A stretch of 64,000 nucleotides of DNA from assembly GCA_944389075.1 (NCBI GenBank), contig CALXLA010000043.1, positions 1 through 64,000 of the forward strand, given 5' to 3'. The stretch's first letter is position 1. Each line of letters begins with the position of its first letter. The notes below the pieces were generated by a model. It did not search any database. It was not told the origin of the DNA and saw only the letters and a list, made by a program, of their open reading frames with translations. Source of the stretch: an uncultured Spirochaetaceae bacterium (GTDB lineage: Bacteria > Spirochaetota > Spirochaetia > Sphaerochaetales > Sphaerochaetaceae). The translations under genes and the position numbers were made by a program. This document shows, in pieces, positions 6,434 to 17,878 of this stretch.

Positions 6434-7135
6434 GTGAAGATACTCTGCATATCCGATGCCACAGATACGCTTATCTATTCATCCATAGCTCCTGAGCTTT
6501 ACAAGGATGTGGGTTTTGTCATCTCTGCAGGAGATCTTCCGCTCAGGTACTATGATTATATCCAGACGATGCTCCGCAAGGATGTCTACTATGTGTATGG
6601 GAATCATAACCTCGAGGATTTCGACAGGATGATGAAGAAGGGCAGTGCGGCATTTATGCATCATGCCCTTGACAGCGATTTCTACAGCAGGGTTGCTGAC
6701 ATACCTGCATTCGGCGGTCTCTTCATAGATGGGAAGTGCGTATATGACAAGGTCCATGACCTGATAATCGCAGGTCTTGGCGGTTCCATGCTGTACAATG
6801 GAGGCGACAGCCAGTACACGGAAAGCCAGATGAAGAAAAGGATAAACAGGCTTGTTCCGAGACTTCTCTATAACAAGAAGCGCTACGGACGTGCTCTTGA
6901 TATTCTGGTGACGCATGCGCCTCCGAAGGGAATGGGGGATGGTGAGGATCTCTGCCACAGGGGTTTTTCCGTGTTCCTTGATTTCATGAGGACATATCGC
7001 CCTAAGTATCTTCTGCATGGACATGTCCACCTTGATGATATCAATGCGCCTCGCATGAGCGAGTATTGCGGTACGAAGGTGATCAATATTTATAAGAACT
7101 ACATCATTGACGATGAGAGCCTTGGGAGGAGTTGA
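6434..7135 (+). CDS. Calcineurin-like metallophosphoesterase
   Basis: This 233-aa protein carries the metal-site motifs of metallophosphoesterases in order: CISDATDTL (a variant of the usual DxH, with Asp retained), SAGDLP near residue 33, YGNHNLEDF near 56, THAPPKGMGD near 157 and LLHGHVHLDD near 194. It probably hydrolyses a phosphoester or cyclic nucleotide, but no substrate can be named. The start is GTG; there is no Shine-Dalgarno sequence, and a promoter placed 7 nt upstream predicts a leaderless message. Its stop overlaps the start of the next gene (TGATG), so the two are coupled. Confidence 0.82.
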   Translation: MKILCISDATDTLIYSSIAPELYKDVGFVISAGDLPLRYYDYIQTMLRKDVYYVYGNHNLEDFDRMMKKGSAAFMHHALDSDFYSRVADIPAFGGLFIDGKCVYDKVHDLIIAGLGGSMLYNGGDSQYTESQMKKRINRLVPRLLYNKKRYGRALDILVTHAPPKGMGDGEDLCHRGFSVFLDFMRTYRPKYLLHGHVHLDDINAPRMSEYCGTKVINIYKNYIIDDESLGRS

Positions 7136-8040
7136 TGGAAAACAGCACCGCGTCCGATGATTTCTCCAGAGCGAAGAACAAAGCCAGGATGCAGACTATC
7201 ATGAATGCGCTTCGCTGGAAGAATCCGAATCTGCTTTCTTTCTATGAGGTCACATCACTGATTAAGCCCAAGTCCGAGACATATCTTGGGATGCGGACAA
7301 TCCCTGTTGAGAAGATCATCGGCTCAGAGGGCCGCTACCATGATTTTTCCGCCGCTTTCTTCCCTAAGCGGGAGATGCTGAGGCACAGATGGGAAAGCAT
7401 AGACTCCGCAGTTCTTGATAATGTCATACTTCCGCCTATATCGGTATACAGTCTCGGAGGGTATTATTTCGTCAGGGATGGCAACCACAGGGTATCTGTT
7501 GCCAAATCAAAGGGTGTTGAGTTCATTGATGCTGAAGTGGTCGAGCTTGATTCCCAGATACCTCTCAAGCCGGGGATGACGATGAAGGAGCTGAGAGCGG
7601 CGGCCGTTGATTATGAAAGGAAGAATTTCATAGAGCAGTATAAGCCGGACTATCTTCCGATGGATGAGATCCGCTTCACGACTCCCGGAGCTTATCCTGA
7701 GATGGTGAATCATATACTTGTCCACAAATATTACATCAATCAGGATTATCCATACGAGATCTCCTTCAAGGAAGCCGCGAAGAGCTGGTATGACAATGTC
7801 TACTTCCCGATAGTCAATGAGATACGCAAGCAGCATCTGCTCTCAGCATTCCCGGGCCAGAGCGAAGGCGATATGTACATGTGGATCGTAAGGCGCTGGG
7901 ATGAGTATAAGAGGGTTGGCAATAAGAATATGACGGCTGCTGAGGCTGTAAGGAAAATCGGGCGTGAAACAGGAAGGAATCCTTTTGCCCGATTTGCAAG
8001 ATATCTGAAATATTATCTTCAGAAGCTGTCAAAGCGCTAG
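7135..8040 (+). CDS. ParB-like (DUF4032-related) nucleotide-hydrolase-fold protein
   Basis: This protein of about 301 aa has a ParB-like core: LGMRTIPVEKIIGSEGRY (about 48-65), PPISVYSLGGYYFVRDGNHR (about 100-119), then VSVAKSKGVEFIDAEV. The DGNHR signature with a following SVA helix is typical of ParB/sulfiredoxin folds and of DUF4032 proteins of unknown role. The C-terminal half (about 150-301) is basic and helical. The ATG at 7135 overlaps the upstream stop and has GGGAGGA upstream. Its last 12 bases overlap the end of the flavodoxin-like gene on the other strand. It is encoded away from any parA or ori-like region, so a role in chromosome partition is not implied. Confidence 0.72.
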   Translation: MENSTASDDFSRAKNKARMQTIMNALRWKNPNLLSFYEVTSLIKPKSETYLGMRTIPVEKIIGSEGRYHDFSAAFFPKREMLRHRWESIDSAVLDNVILPPISVYSLGGYYFVRDGNHRVSVAKSKGVEFIDAEVVELDSQIPLKPGMTMKELRAAAVDYERKNFIEQYKPDYLPMDEIRFTTPGAYPEMVNHILVHKYYINQDYPYEISFKEAAKSWYDNVYFPIVNEIRKQHLLSAFPGQSEGDMYMWIVRRWDEYKRVGNKNMTAAEAVRKIGRETGRNPFARFARYLKYYLQKLSKR

Positions 8041-8607: not shown

Positions 8608-9384
8608 TCATGAGAAAGCCGTGTATATGCCATCCCTGCACGCTACCAAGACTTTCCTTCCATAGAGATCGGATAGGATATCTTCCCTCAGTGTCTCTTC
8701 CTTGGTCCCATCCATTGCGATCTGCCCGTCCTTCATGAGTATGATCCTGTTTATCGATGGAAGTATCTCTGAAAGCTCATGCGTCACCATCACAAGAGTC
8801 CTGTTTCCTGTCGTGTATGCGGCGATTGTATCGCGGAGATCTGCGCGCGATGGGAAATCAAGCCCTGAGGAAGCCTCGTCGAGAAGAAGGATCTCCGGAT
8901 CTGTTATTGCCGCCCGTGCGAGGAGGACTCTCCGTTTCTCTCCTGTGGACAGTGTATTCATGGCTCTGTCGCCAAGCCTCTCCAGCCCGACTTTCCTCAG
9001 TTCCTCATCAGCTTTCTGCCATTCTTCGTCTCTGACGATGTGATGGAAATCGAATCCAAGCGATGAATGGAGTCCTGATGCGACTATTTCACGTGCGGGG
9101 TAGGTTGTCTGGAAGAATGTGTCCTGAGAAGGAGATACAAGGCTCATTTTCTTTTTCAGGTCCTGTATCATCCATCGTTCCTGTCCGAGAACCGATGAGC
9201 GGTAGCTGTCGAGCGCGAGAGGGTATGTACGCCTTGCGATGACATCGATCAGCGTTGATTTACCGGCTCCATTTGGGCCGATTATCGCGATATGCTCGCC
9301 TTTCCCGGCTCTTATGGAGACTCCTGAGAGTATGTAGCGTCCGTCCCTTCTTACATATGCATTTTCTATAGCAAAGGCTTCCAT
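8608..9384 (-). CDS. Stand-alone ABC transporter ATP-binding protein
   Basis: This 258-aa single ATPase domain has Walker A GPNGAGKSTL (about residue 35), the signature LSTGEKRRVLLARA, Walker B ILLLDEASSGLD and switch MVTHELSE. No permease or binding-protein gene is adjacent. Its sequence style is like the ModF/YlmA group of soluble ABC ATPases, so either a regulatory role or a partner permease elsewhere is possible. The start at 9384 is chosen because TATCAT ends 7 nt upstream with a perfect TTGACA 18 bp further; the frame is open to 9471 but those codons would lie inside the promoter. Confidence 0.85.
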   Translation of the reverse strand: MEAFAIENAYVRRDGRYILSGVSIRAGKGEHIAIIGPNGAGKSTLIDVIARRTYPLALDSYRSSVLGQERWMIQDLKKKMSLVSPSQDTFFQTTYPAREIVASGLHSSLGFDFHHIVRDEEWQKADEELRKVGLERLGDRAMNTLSTGEKRRVLLARAAITDPEILLLDEASSGLDFPSRADLRDTIAAYTTGNRTLVMVTHELSEILPSINRIILMKDGQIAMDGTKEETLREDILSDLYGRKVLVACRDGIYTAFS

Positions 9385-9390
9385 AGGCTG

Positions 9391-9420
9391 ATGATAGTTT
9401 CCCTCCCTTTCATTTGTCAA
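9391..9420 (-). promoter_or_regulatory. Consensus promoter of the ABC ATPase gene, predicted leaderless
   Basis: On the minus strand TTGACA (9415-9420), 18 bp, TATCAT (9391-9396), then six bases to the ATG at 9384. There is no room for a ribosome binding site on the predicted transcript. Confidence 0.75.
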
Positions 9421-9507
9421 AGCGGAAAAATGCCGCATGGAAAATATTTTCAGCTGGTTTACTGCTTGCAATAAATGAAAATAGAAGAAACAAAACCCTG
9501 AAATCTG

Positions 9508-9584
9508 TATTTTTGTGCAAAAATATGCGACATTAACACTGTTTTAACTTTGCGTAATCTGAAAAGGTGTGCGACAATAAACAC
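9508..9584. repeat. Palindrome and direct repeats, possible operator
   Basis: A perfect 8-2-8 palindrome, TATTTTTG-TG-CAAAAATA, spans 9508-9525. It is followed by two near-identical direct repeats, TGCGACATTAACAC (9526-9539) and TGCGACAATAAACAC (9570-9584). The second repeat overlaps the -10 of the small-RNA promoter, so a regulator binding both copies could control it. Confidence 0.45.
9550..9578 (+). promoter_or_regulatory. Promoter of the candidate small RNA
   Basis: TTGCGT (9550-9555), 17 bp, then GACAAT (9573-9578) preceded by TGC (an extended -10 arrangement). Transcription is predicted to start near 9585. Confidence 0.5.
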
Positions 9585-9687
9585 ATCGCAGGAAAAGAGG
9601 ATTATCTTATTTGGCGATGGTCTCTAATACCTAAAAGGGGACAAGGAGGTTTGCCACTGGCAGAAAAGGGCCAGTGGTGATTTTTTT
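9585..9687 (+). ncRNA. Candidate small RNA of about 103 nt
   Basis: The segment has its own promoter and a strong intrinsic terminator, and the next gene at 9734 has a separate -10 box. Structure visible by eye: CATCGC (9584-9589) can pair with GCGATG around 9613-9618, with an AAGA/TCTT helix inside. A weaker GTCTC/GGGGAC pairing follows, then an unpaired perfect AAGGAGGT (9643-9650), then the terminator hairpin. No convincing reading frame begins after the AAGGAGGT. It does not match any RNA family I recognise. A long untranslated leader of the lipoprotein gene with a riboswitch-like terminator is the alternative. Confidence 0.45.
9653..9687 (+). terminator. Intrinsic terminator of the candidate small RNA
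   Basis: CCACTGGC (9654-9661) and GCCAGTGG (9670-9677) form a perfect 8-bp stem with loop AGAAAAGG, followed by TGA and seven T. The T run exists only in the plus direction. Confidence 0.85.
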
Positions 9688-9733
9688 GCAGGATTGGTTA
9701 AATAAACCGGCGAAAACAGATAGACTGGGCACC

Positions 9734-10402
9734 ATGCATGGAAATCGCTGGCTCATTGTTCCCATAATCCTATTGCTCTCTTCTTGCGCGACGGCTTCAT
9801 ATGACGAGGCAATCGTTGCTGATTATGGAGAAACACCTGCTGCGATTGAGACTGCCGTGGAAGCTGTTGCGGAGCCCGATATCATTCCTGCTGAAGAGCA
9901 CGAGGCCGCAAACGAGCCTTCTGCAGAACTGGTTGCTGAAGTTCCGGAAGCTGTCGCTGAGGCTGAAGCTGTGGAAGAGAGTCCTGCGGAAGAGCCTGCT
10001 GAAATCAATGATGCAGAGGAACTTCCTGTCATTGAGGAAGCGATTGAAGCTCCTGAGATTGCTGGTGATGAAGAAGTGCCAGGAATTGCAGCGGAAGAGG
10101 AAGTTCCTCTTCCCGAGGTAATTGCCGAAGAGCAGGCATACAGCATTGAACCATGGCTTTTCCGGCTTATGGCCTCATCTGTTGCGATAGTCCTTCTTTT
10201 CACATTGGCGACTGCCATAAGGAACATCTGTCACATGCCGCTCCCGCGTGTTATCTCGATTGTCCTTTCTGTTGTATTTGCTGTATTCCCTGCTGTGATA
10301 TCATCGCTTGCTGCAGGATGGTCCGGAGAATGGCTTCTGTATCTTATCCTGCTGACATCGTATTTCATCTTCAGGTCAAAGGGAACGAGGCACTTTCGAT
10401 AG
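9734..10402 (+). CDS. Acidic, repeat-rich lipoprotein with C-terminal membrane helices
   Basis: This 222-aa protein starts with a lipoprotein signal (IILLLSSCA, Cys at about residue 18), so it should be lipidated. Residues 30-135 are a low-complexity segment made almost only of Glu, Ala, Pro, Val, Ile and Asp, probably disordered and strongly negative. Three hydrophobic helices follow (about 142-165, 172-196 and 200-218). A lipid anchor plus multi-span C-terminus is unusual. The ATG at 9734 is chosen because TAGACT ends 8 nt upstream and no ribosome site exists; a GTG at 9674 lies inside the upstream terminator. The last 32 bases overlap the ROK gene on the other strand. No homologous family is recognised. 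Confidence 0.65.
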   Translation: MHGNRWLIVPIILLLSSCATASYDEAIVADYGETPAAIETAVEAVAEPDIIPAEEHEAANEPSAELVAEVPEAVAEAEAVEESPAEEPAEINDAEELPVIEEAIEAPEIAGDEEVPGIAAEEEVPLPEVIAEEQAYSIEPWLFRLMASSVAIVLLFTLATAIRNICHMPLPRVISIVLSVVFAVFPAVISSLAAGWSGEWLLYLILLTSYFIFRSKGTRHFR

Positions 10403-14030: not shown

Positions 14031-14281
14031 CAGCCTTGAGGAAAAAAGAACGCCGGGCGGTGAGTATGGGGTGGGAGAGAACCGTCCGGCGTAAGATTAA
14101 CACACACTGCAAGGAGGTTGTTAACGTTATTGCTCTGTATCCTGAGAATACCCTTAAGAGACGCTTAAGGCTATATAGTTCATAGAATTGACATAAATCT
14201 TCAGAATAGGAACAAGAAAGTCCTGAAAAGCAAAAGACGCCAACGGCGTCTTTGCAGAAATACACTAAAAAGGAGGTTTGT
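14031..14281. other. Hairpin-rich intergenic region with two orphan ribosome-binding sites
   Basis: No long gene fits here. In order: CGCCGGGCGGT (14051-14061) pairs with ACCGTCCGGCG (14081-14091) over 11 bp, and read on the minus strand it is followed by a T-rich tail. TTAACA/TGTTAA (about 14098-14123) encloses a perfect AAGGAGG at 14111-14117. CCTTAAG-AGACG-CTTAAGG spans about 14152-14170. AAAGACGCC-AAC-GGCGTCTTT spans about 14234-14254 and has T-rich flanks on the minus strand. A second AAGGAGG lies at 14270-14276. It could be one or two structured RNAs or the leader of the short reading frame at 14282. Confidence 0.45.
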
Positions 14282-14347
14282 TTGAAAAAACTGTTTGCTC
14301 TAATATTTTACATGCAGGATACGTGCCAACCTTTTCCGATGCTTTGA
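14282..14347 (+). CDS. Possible 21-residue hydrophobic peptide
   Basis: A TTG codon five bases after a perfect AGGAGG opens a 21-codon frame, MKKLFALIFYMQ followed by DTCQPFPML. The start looks like a signal peptide or small membrane peptide (two Lys then a hydrophobic stretch). It could be a real small protein, a leader peptide, or the remains of a decayed secreted-protein gene. Only the ribosome site and the Lys-hydrophobic pattern support it. Confidence 0.3.
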   Translation: MKKLFALIFYMQDTCQPFPML

Positions 14348-15171: not shown

Positions 15172-15420
15172 ATGAATGAACGCAGAGTCGCCATTCTTGG
15201 CGTTATTGTCGAGAACCCGGCTTCTGTCGATGCCCTCAATGCAATTCTCCATGAATGCAAGGAGTGGATAATCGGCAGGATGGGCATACCATACAAGGAA
15301 CGCAGTATAAGCATAATAAGCATCGTGATGGATGCTCCGGCAGAGATCATAAGCAGCCTTTCCGGAAAGATCGGGATGCTGGATGGTGTCACATGCAAGG
15401 CGACATACTCAAAGCTCTGA
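15172..15420 (+). CDS. TM1266-like [FeFe]-hydrogenase system regulator (ACT-like)
   Basis: This 82-aa protein matches the small ACT-like family typified by TM1266, often called the putative iron-only hydrogenase system regulator. Its start RRVAILGVIVENP, the central IIGRMGIPYKERSISIISIV and the end GKIGMLDGVTCKATYSK follow the ferredoxin-like fold of the family. The function is not established in general; association with hydE/hydG/hydF is what gives it meaning. AAGGAG lies six bases before the ATG. Its 3' end overlaps hydE by 28 nt, so it is the first gene of the operon. Confidence 0.85.
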   Translation: MNERRVAILGVIVENPASVDALNAILHECKEWIIGRMGIPYKERSISIISIVMDAPAEIISSLSGKIGMLDGVTCKATYSKL

Positions 15421-16481
15421 TTGATAAACTCGAGAGAGAAGGTACACTGAGCCGTGATGAGTTCCTTGTCGTCTATGAGGGAAGGAATGAGATTGACAGA
15501 CAATGGCTCAGCCGGAAGGCCTTTGCGCTCCGGTGCTCTGCTTATGGCAATGATGTATATCTCAGGGCTCTTATCGAATGCTCATCATACTGCAGATCCG
15601 GCTGTTTCTACTGTGGGATAAACAGGACAAACTGCCATGCAGAGCGCTACAGGCTGTCACCGGATGAGGTGATTGAAGCAGCTTCCGTAGCATATGACTC
15701 AGGTTTCAGGACATTTGTCCTTCAGGGAGGCGAGGATCCTGTCTTCGTGAAGGATCTCGGGAAGATGGTTGCTGAGCTGAGGAGGAAGTACCCGGATGCG
15801 GCAATAACGCTGTCTTTCGGCGAATGGCCTGAGGAGATGTATGCGGAGTGGAAGGCGGCAGGCGCTGACAGATATCTTCTCCGCCATGAGAGTGCGGTAC
15901 CTGAGCATTTCGCGCGCCTTCATCCTGAGAGCCAGAGACTTGAGAGCAGGATGGAATGCCTGAGGATACTCAGGAAGCTCGGGTATCAGGTGGGAGCAGG
16001 ATTCATGGTAGGCTCGCCTTTCCAGAGCAGTGAGAATGTAGCAGAGGACCTTGTGTTCCTCACGTCATTCAGGCCTGAGATGATAGGAATCGGGCCATTC
16101 ATACCTCATCATGATACTGTGTTTGCTTCCTATAGCGCAGGAAGCGTTGATGATACTCTCTTCCTCCTGTCAGTTCTCAGGATCGCGATGCCGCATGTCC
16201 TTCTGCCTGCGACTACTGCGCTTGCATCGCTCTCTGATACAGGAATGAGGGATGGCCTTCTTGCAGGAGCCAATGTGATAATGCCGAACATGAGCCCATC
16301 GAGGACCAATGGGCTTTATCAGCTATATGACGGGAAGAAGCGCCAGAGCATAGGTGCTTCTCTTGAAAAGGAGATAAGCGCTGCATCATGCCGTCCGGCT
16401 ATGGTGCGCGGTGATTATACTGATGGGGAAGGAGGTTCCCTGACCCAAAAGGAGAGAACATGTACGATCCGAAATCAATGA
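15393..16481 (+). CDS. hydE: [FeFe]-hydrogenase maturation radical SAM enzyme HydE
   Basis: This 362-aa BioB/ThiH-like radical SAM enzyme helps build the 2Fe subcluster of the H-cluster. The CxxxCxxC cluster motif is SYCRSGCFYCGINR near residue 65. It is followed by LQGGEDP, as in HydE proteins, and the GAGFMVGSPFQS loop near 200. The ATG at 15393 lies within the end of the TM1266-like gene; no strong ribosome site is present, so it is likely coupled. Its C-terminal tail (GGSLTQKERT) is encoded by the second copy of the leader repeat and overlaps hydG by 22 nt. HydE would release 5'-deoxyadenosine in each SAM cleavage. Confidence 0.95.
   Translation: MQGDILKALIDKLEREGTLSRDEFLVVYEGRNEIDRQWLSRKAFALRCSAYGNDVYLRALIECSSYCRSGCFYCGINRTNCHAERYRLSPDEVIEAASVAYDSGFRTFVLQGGEDPVFVKDLGKMVAELRRKYPDAAITLSFGEWPEEMYAEWKAAGADRYLLRHESAVPEHFARLHPESQRLESRMECLRILRKLGYQVGAGFMVGSPFQSSENVAEDLVFLTSFRPEMIGIGPFIPHHDTVFASYSAGSVDDTLFLLSVLRIAMPHVLLPATTALASLSDTGMRDGLLAGANVIMPNMSPSRTNGLYQLYDGKKRQSIGASLEKEISAASCRPAMVRGDYTDGEGGSLTQKERTCTIRNQ
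16427..16459 (+). repeat. Repeated leader element, copy 2 (before hydG)
   Basis: GGAAGGAGGTTCC then CTGACCCAAAAGGAG, ending five bases before the hydG ATG. It lies inside the last codons of hydE. The shared part with copy 1 is CCCTGAC, one variable base, CA, one variable base, AAGGAG. Confidence 0.5.
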
Positions 16482-17878
16482 AAGCGGAAGATTTCATCAA
16501 TGATGATGAGATTCAGGAAACACTGGCATGGGCGGAGAGCCATAAAGATGATGCTGCTCTGATCGATGCCGCTATCGAGAAGGCAAAGCTCCTCAAGGGG
16601 CTCAGCCACAGGGAGGCCGCGCTCCTTCTTATGTGCACGCTGGAGGACAGGAACCAGCAGATCTTCGCGCTTGCGAAGGAGATAAAGAGAAAGTTCTATG
16701 GCGACAGGATTGTCATGTTCGCACCTCTCTATCTCTCGAACTACTGCGTCAATGGCTGTGTGTACTGTCCTTATCATGCGAAGAACAGGCATATACCGAG
16801 AAAGAAGCTCACGCAGGATGAGATCAGGGCGGAGGTCATTGCCCTTCAGGATATGGGCCATAAGCGCCTTGCGCTTGAGACGGGAGAGGATCCTGTGAAC
16901 AATCCTATCGAGTATGTGCTTGAGTCGATAAAGACAATTTATTCGATAAAGCATAAGAATGGTGCTATCAGGCGTGTGAATGTGAATATAGCTGCGACGA
17001 CTGTCGAGAACTACCGCAAGCTGAAGGAAGCCGGAATAGGCACATATATCCTCTTTCAGGAGACTTACAACAAGAAGAGCTATGAGGAGCTCCATCCTAC
17101 AGGACCAAAGAGTGATTATGCATACCATACAGAAGCTCATGACAGGGCTATGCAGGGAGGTATCGACGATGTCGGACTTGGCGTTCTTTTCGGATTGAAT
17201 CTCTATAAATATGATTTTGTCGGGCTTCTCATGCATGCTGAGCATCTTGAGGCTGTTTTCGGAGTAGGTCCTCACACGATCTCGGTACCAAGGATATGCC
17301 CTGCCGATGATATCGATCCGGGTGATTTCGATAATTCGATTTCAGATGCTATCTTCGAGAAGATTGTCGCATGCATAAGAGTCGCTGTTCCGTACACCGG
17401 TATGATAATCAGTACAAGGGAGAGCAAGAAGGTCAGGGAAGAGGTTCTCAATCTCGGTATATCGCAGATATCAGGAGGATCGAGGACAAGCGTAGGCGGC
17501 TATGTGCATCCCGAGAAGGAGAATGAGAGTTCCGCACAGTTCGATGTCTCTGACAACAGGACTCTTGATGAGGTCGTCGCATGGCTAATGGAGCTTGGCT
17601 ATGTTCCGTCTTTCTGCACGGCATGCTATCGCGAGGGAAGGACAGGCGACAGGTTCATGTCGCTTTGCAAGGCTGGCCAGATACAGAACTGCTGTCTGCC
17701 GAATGCTCTTATGACGCTGAAGGAGTATCTGATGGATTATGCATCCGACAGAACGAAGGCCATCGGAGATCCGCTTATCGAGAAGCAGCTTGAGGGCATC
17801 ACGAATGAGAAGGTGCTTTCAGTCGTGCGCGACCGCCTGAAGAAGATCGAGGAAGGCGAAAGGGATTTCAGATTCTGA
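16460..17878 (+). CDS. hydG: [FeFe]-hydrogenase maturation radical SAM enzyme HydG
   Basis: This 472-aa enzyme splits tyrosine to make the CO and CN ligands of the H-cluster. The radical SAM motif CxxxCxxC is SNYCVNGCVYCPYHAKNR near residue 95. The family-specific C-terminal cluster motif is FCTACYREGRTGDRFM near 390, which holds the second iron-sulfur centre and separates HydG from ThiH. The RRVNVNIAATTVENYRKLKE segment follows the HydG barrel. A strong AAGGAG lies five bases before the ATG. It overlaps hydE by 22 nt upstream and hydF by one base downstream. Confidence 0.97.
   Translation: MYDPKSMKAEDFINDDEIQETLAWAESHKDDAALIDAAIEKAKLLKGLSHREAALLLMCTLEDRNQQIFALAKEIKRKFYGDRIVMFAPLYLSNYCVNGCVYCPYHAKNRHIPRKKLTQDEIRAEVIALQDMGHKRLALETGEDPVNNPIEYVLESIKTIYSIKHKNGAIRRVNVNIAATTVENYRKLKEAGIGTYILFQETYNKKSYEELHPTGPKSDYAYHTEAHDRAMQGGIDDVGLGVLFGLNLYKYDFVGLLMHAEHLEAVFGVGPHTISVPRICPADDIDPGDFDNSISDAIFEKIVACIRVAVPYTGMIISTRESKKVREEVLNLGISQISGGSRTSVGGYVHPEKENESSAQFDVSDNRTLDEVVAWLMELGYVPSFCTACYREGRTGDRFMSLCKAGQIQNCCLPNALMTLKEYLMDYASDRTKAIGDPLIEKQLEGITNEKVLSVVRDRLKKIEEGERDFRF

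Follow-up and report, generated by a model that had tools for sequence, protein, structure and literature searches.

The window analysed here is a stretch of 64,000 nucleotides (nt; contig CALXLA010000043.1) from an uncultured Spirochaetaceae bacterium with a genome of 2.2 Mb, whose genus relatives are Candidatus Ornithospirochaeta. Positions 9584-9687 of this window almost certainly hold one copy of a stand-alone gene for a structured RNA. An earlier reading made from the letters of the window (hereafter the sequence-only reading) had called this RNA an orphan; the label was wrong, as the RNA belongs to a family-wide RNA gene. A conserved hexamer, AGGAGG, lies in a purine linker ahead of the terminator, and our preferred interpretation, held tentatively, is that the RNA may be a Shine-Dalgarno (SD) mimic occupying 30S ribosomal subunits.

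Promoter, hairpins and terminator of the RNA gene

The predicted transcript (about 104 nt; 9584-9687, plus strand) has its start placed from the -10 box and its end from the T tract. All its parts lie on the plus strand, and the sequence-only reading had located the promoter, the two helices and the terminator correctly. The promoter (9550-9578) comprises a -35 box TTGCGT (9550-9555), a 17-nt spacer and an extended -10 element, TGTGC-GACAAT, with the -10 box at 9573-9578; in relatives, the aligned promoters read TTTGMWTT/TTTTACA ... TGnRAyAAT at equal distance. Hairpin P1 (9584-9619) pairs CATCGC (9584-9589) with GCGATG (9614-9619), and hairpin P2 (9620-9642) pairs GTCTCT (9620-9625; GTCTC in the sequence-only reading) with GGGGAC (9637-9642). 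The linker AAGGAGGT (9643-9650), which complements the 3' end of 16S ribosomal RNA (rRNA) and has AGGAGG at 9644-9649, leads into an intrinsic terminator (9651-9687) formed by the stem TTTGCCACTGGC / GGGCCAGTGGTGA (about 9651-9680) and a T7 tract (9681-9687).

The RNA stretch folds at -39 kcal/mol (z -4.85), and none of 200 shuffles folds as well. Taken by itself, the window promoter scores under the threshold of the consensus scan, and shuffles hold no fewer terminator-like patterns, the window terminator by itself being not above chance. The octamer AAGGAGGT is no evidence alone, because it occurs five more times within the window. Since such pattern scans alone are unconvincing, the case rests on conservation: promoter and terminator are both conserved across genomes, and the hairpins are kept by compensatory changes. 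The sequence-only reading held that its RNA would fall if the hairpins were not conserved in related genomes; in the covariation comparison of relatives, they are. Three alignments were compared with shuffled controls, and in each the observed value exceeded those of all 500 shuffles. The first (A1; P1, P2 and terminator) gave 34 cells with double changes against 9.9 after shuffling, the second (A2) 27 against 8.6, and the third (A3; P1 and terminator only) 63 against 22.6. These shuffles do not keep relatedness, whereas a control in which the pairing partners are slid does, and the signal vanishes under sliding.

The usual P1 loop of the family is 10 nt long (AUUnnnYCCAG) and closed by a G-C pair, after which U-A, C-G and A-U pairs all occur. 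This length is found in 29 of 37 distinct loop-linker combinations. The window and one relative (G024) form a small subclade with a purine-rich P1 loop (AAGAGGATTATCT), unlike the usual one. One genus (g36) lacks P2, which leaves P1, the linker and the terminator as the constant parts; the first GCC of the terminator stem is conserved family-wide.

Distribution and genomic context

A BLAST search with the RNA stretch found matches in 15 of 60 relatives, chiefly to the 3' half. Three covariance models were also searched, whose E-values are rough owing to a short calibration. The first (R1), built from 22 sequences, gave a single match in the genome of the window itself (E 4.5e-10) and matched 44 of the 48 genus genomes, one match apiece except in G002, where two copies have identical gene context; this assembly is probably a mixed bin. 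The broader second model (R2) matched 46 of these 48 genomes, plus two weak extras, of which the one looked at more closely proved spurious; the second match in G063 (C4) was set aside as spurious, being without the motif. Of the two genomes missed, one (G011) has a contig that ends shortly beyond the flanking ABC gene and the other (G070) is 78% complete. Across Sphaerochaetaceae, R2 matched 83 of 139 genomes and 8 of 22 genera, the weakest of these matches (E > 0.01) not all being certain. They include closed genomes, namely G188 (2,227,296 bases) and those of genus g33 (3.2-3.6 Mb), the latter appearing Sphaerochaeta-like.

The third model (R3), which finds the window copy at E 1.5e-7, was searched over 395 genomes of the class and matched 69. 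Seven matches fell outside the family (E 5e-5 to 5e-3), and six of these are real homologues, with GCAAAAGGGGGTTRCCGC ahead of the terminator, a -10 box TATAAT and the same neighbours. The remaining one (G243, E 0.005) was dismissed as lacking the linker motif. A pattern search added one outside-family homologue (G096), and a longer form of about 125-160 nt is thus far represented by 7 genomes in three other families (f3, f4 and f17). In most other families, pattern matches were rejected, as they lie within coding sequence; GCAAAAGGRGGTTRCCGC-like strings with no terminator after them at ten loci of other Spirochaetia (L216-L219, L222, L226-L230) were likewise judged to be chance occurrences in coding sequence. 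A ParB-like protein is encoded in the window at 7132-8040 (no Pfam match at E 0.001) and in 29 of 39 other-family Spirochaetia genomes (about 40-50% identity); beside its gene in these 29 genomes, nothing convincing was found. In one other-family genome (L203), a group II intron domain lies about 4 kb from the RNA (10137-10213, minus strand; RF00029, E 2.9e-7). Viral contigs and plasmids held no match to the RNA, and a phage or plasmid origin was rejected on this ground. The RNA gene is best read as one inherited vertically in Sphaerochaetaceae and some related Spirochaetia.

The Rfam scan that the sequence-only reading had suggested was also carried out (4227 families of Rfam 15, with E allowed up to 10, 5 or 1). 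No family came at or near its gathering score, either for the window copy or for those of relatives, and membership of a known RNA family was rejected. Like 6S RNA and signal recognition particle (SRP) RNA, the RNA is single-copy, syntenic and present in most clade members; unlike them, it has a different architecture, and there is no match between their covariance models and this RNA.

In nearly all genomes with readable context, the RNA is flanked on one side by a block with FMN reductase, usually with an ABC ATPase, and on the other by a block with a ROK-family gene and htpG (genes identified by Pfam and clusters). Depending on the lineage, gene insertions flank it on either side. The upstream neighbour is divergent or co-directional according to the genome, and the downstream neighbour is a lipoprotein gene, an epimerase-like gene or a convergent ROK gene. 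In the window, the divergent upstream neighbour is the ABC transporter ATPase gene that serves as syntenic marker (8608-9471 as longest reading frame, minus strand), the true start of which is probably nearer 9384. The downstream neighbour (9734-10402, plus strand) encodes a predicted lipoprotein without Pfam match, which evolves fast and has a Glu/Ala/Pro-rich middle and hydrophobic segments; its gene is syntenic in the genus and does not always adjoin the RNA in relatives. The RNA has two features of a stand-alone small RNA (sRNA), namely its own conserved promoter and terminator and independence from the identity and strand of the flanking gene. The sequence-only reading had argued for independence from a -10 box belonging to the next gene; this box is a chance-level pattern match, and independence is borne out by the changing neighbours instead.

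The purine linker and its possible partners

All 68 collected family sequences have AGGAGG and, one to three bases further on, (G/A)CC, while the base ahead of the hexamer varies (A in 61, U in 6, G in 1). Two further copies, located by synteny in genomes without a match in the family search, have AGGAGG as well (70 out of 70 in total). The 16S rRNA of the family ends in the canonical anti-SD GGATCACCTCCTT. No recurrent start codon was found 2-11 nt past AGGAGG in the family sequences, and the UUG at 0-1 nt stands too near to serve. The sequence-only reading had described 9643-9650 as an unpaired anti-16S stretch with no start codon at useful distance: the sequence and the missing start codon stand, whereas "unpaired" is conditional, as the U tail can pair weakly with it. 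The linker of the three other families has AGGGGG instead, and a single G-U still allows it to pair with CCUCCU; the predicted duplex with the anti-SD has -12.5 kcal/mol, against -12.9 kcal/mol for AGGAGG.

The hexamer is invariant while its 5' flank drifts. Its partner should therefore match rRNA in constancy, and in our view the simplest mechanism would be a titration of 30S subunits. Under the SD-mimic interpretation, sigma-70-type transcription would yield an RNA of 75-150 nt composed of P1, in most cases P2, a short unpaired purine linker and the terminator hairpin. Held between two stable hairpins, the linker would present AGGAGG as an SD without start codon and could pair with the anti-SD tail of 16S rRNA, so that free or maturing 30S subunits might be occupied and initiation might decrease on messenger RNAs (mRNAs) that need a strong SD. 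P1 and P2 may set stability, spacing or the binding of a partner protein. A fuller proposal, which is more doubtful, is that the RNA would regulate translation as a natural genome-encoded 30S decoy, its SD acting in trans on the anti-SD of 16S rRNA and the neighbouring families keeping a wobble variant of it.

Several points weigh against these proposals. The pairing energy cannot count as specific evidence, because any AGGAGG would pair with the anti-SD. All 7 outside-family genomes place the G-U centrally, a position that selection on anti-SD pairing would not by itself favour. In the predicted ensemble, the hexamer is in part base-paired to the U tail: the mean unpaired probability per base of the SD-like stretch is 0.14-0.58 with the tail and 0.62-0.79 without it, and in these models exposure of AGGAGG holds best after the tail has been trimmed or bound. 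Moreover, the training sequences of the covariance models held the core, so the invariance of the motif is partly ascertained, which the two synteny-guided copies lessen and do not abolish. Finally, the R2 family search and inspection of the loci gave no convincing copy in four genera (g26, g27, g35 and g122); the RNA is therefore not essential everywhere.

A sponge or trans-acting sRNA, in which the purine linker, and perhaps a pyrimidine-rich P1 loop, would pair with CU-rich sRNAs or mRNA sites, is a possible alternative that we hold to be nearly as likely as the SD mimic. Both AGGAGG and AGGGGG fit CCUCC or CCCCC partners, a sponge would explain the all-G variant better than an SD mimic does, and analogous RNAs pair with C-rich or anti-SD-bearing sRNAs. 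RosA of Bacillus subtilis and RsaI of Staphylococcus aureus are, like this RNA, stand-alone and have a G-rich SD-like stretch, which in them is single-stranded, as it may be here, and complements C-rich partners (PMC8216469). RosA is about 229 nt long and processed, and has three G-rich regions; no relation of it to the RNA described here was seen in Rfam. CrfA of Caulobacter, a sponge of the SisA-D/alphaR8 sRNAs, shares a purine-rich motif that complements an anti-SD-type CUCC (PMC12559287). Its motif sits in a stem loop and its interaction is Hfq-associated, whereas here the motif is in a linker and no Hfq was detected in the spirochaetes examined (0 of 60 relatives, with working positive controls). 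A canonical Hfq-dependent sRNA is therefore unlikely, though some sponges need no Hfq. No CU-rich partner RNA turned up, though no search aimed at partners was made. A G-rich sponge calls for an accessible motif; the motif is conserved, yet the predictions have it pairing in part with the U tail. The invariance of the hexamer amid variable flanks also points away from sponge partners, towards one with the constancy of rRNA.

It is less likely that the RNA is a scaffold or decoy for a protein that would recognise the P1 loop (N-G-AUUnnnYCCAG-C-N') together with the purine linker, a reading that ranks third. The length and closing pair of the loop are conserved, with covariation (UA/CG/AU) beside them. 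A pseudoknot between P1 loop and linker was rejected, being no better than with shuffled loops (-3.92 vs. -3.67 kcal/mol), and such pairing fails to explain the loop. The linker ACAAGGAGG resembles the CsrA-binding consensus, and among proteins that bind ACANGGANG-type sites CsrA is the best known. However, CsrA was found in none of the 48 genus genomes, although positive controls worked, and there is no other known candidate protein; a CsrA sponge was rejected. Unlike CsrB, RsmY, RsmZ and McaS, the RNA has one motif rather than many, in a linker rather than in a loop.

The remaining readings are weaker. The linker might be a part of the terminator with no further role, as AGGAGG pairs with the U tract in predicted folds; we consider this improbable, since compensatory changes alter the bases of the stem while the hexamer stays constant, and termination does not call for an invariant AGGAGG, G-U being poorer than A-U there. 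The riboswitch that the sequence-only reading had entertained, or an attenuator leader, would fit a terminator-ended structured RNA with a same-strand gene downstream in the window, and is very improbable because the neighbours vary in identity and strand, the downstream gene differing among relatives and being convergent in Sphaerochaeta-type genomes, and no Rfam riboswitch matches. Equally improbable is a small mRNA for a peptide begun from the SD or, in some relatives, from an AUG in the P1 loop (MIDPA...): many Ornithospirochaeta P1 sequences read (A/C/T)TG-n-GAY-CCN-GCA, with synonymous-like changes that looked coding, but the "start" base and the base that it pairs with in P1 covary, reading frames are shifted after 5-8 codons, and AGGAGG is not followed by a start codon at a usable distance. 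In L014 (1440-1550) and relatives, the P1 loop reads start codon-Ile-Asp-Pro-Ala, which was judged a by-product of the hairpin.

Other observations in the window and significance of the RNA

Elsewhere in the window, two adjoining genes (15255-17878) resemble, as judged from sequence, radical-SAM hydE and hydG of iron hydrogenase maturation. The intergenic stretch at 14236-14300 has a terminator-like GACGCC/GGCGTC hairpin, then AAGGAGGTTTG and a very short TTG reading frame; R3 gave no match there. AAGGAGGTT also occurs at 14111.

The RNA constitutes an undescribed structured RNA family, single-copy in nearly all genomes and syntenic. Searches of open-access text gave neither an account of such an RNA nor any described sRNAs for this bacterial group, of which the sampled genomes are without detectable Hfq and the genus also without detectable CsrA. 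A spirochaete genome was among those covered by one published comparative screen for structured RNAs. If AGGAGG acts in trans on 16S rRNA, this would be a naturally occurring competitor RNA for the anti-SD, whose mutants would reveal the extent of translation control through 30S titration. Closed genomes resembling those of cultured, free-living Sphaerochaeta carry the RNA, so testing should be practical.
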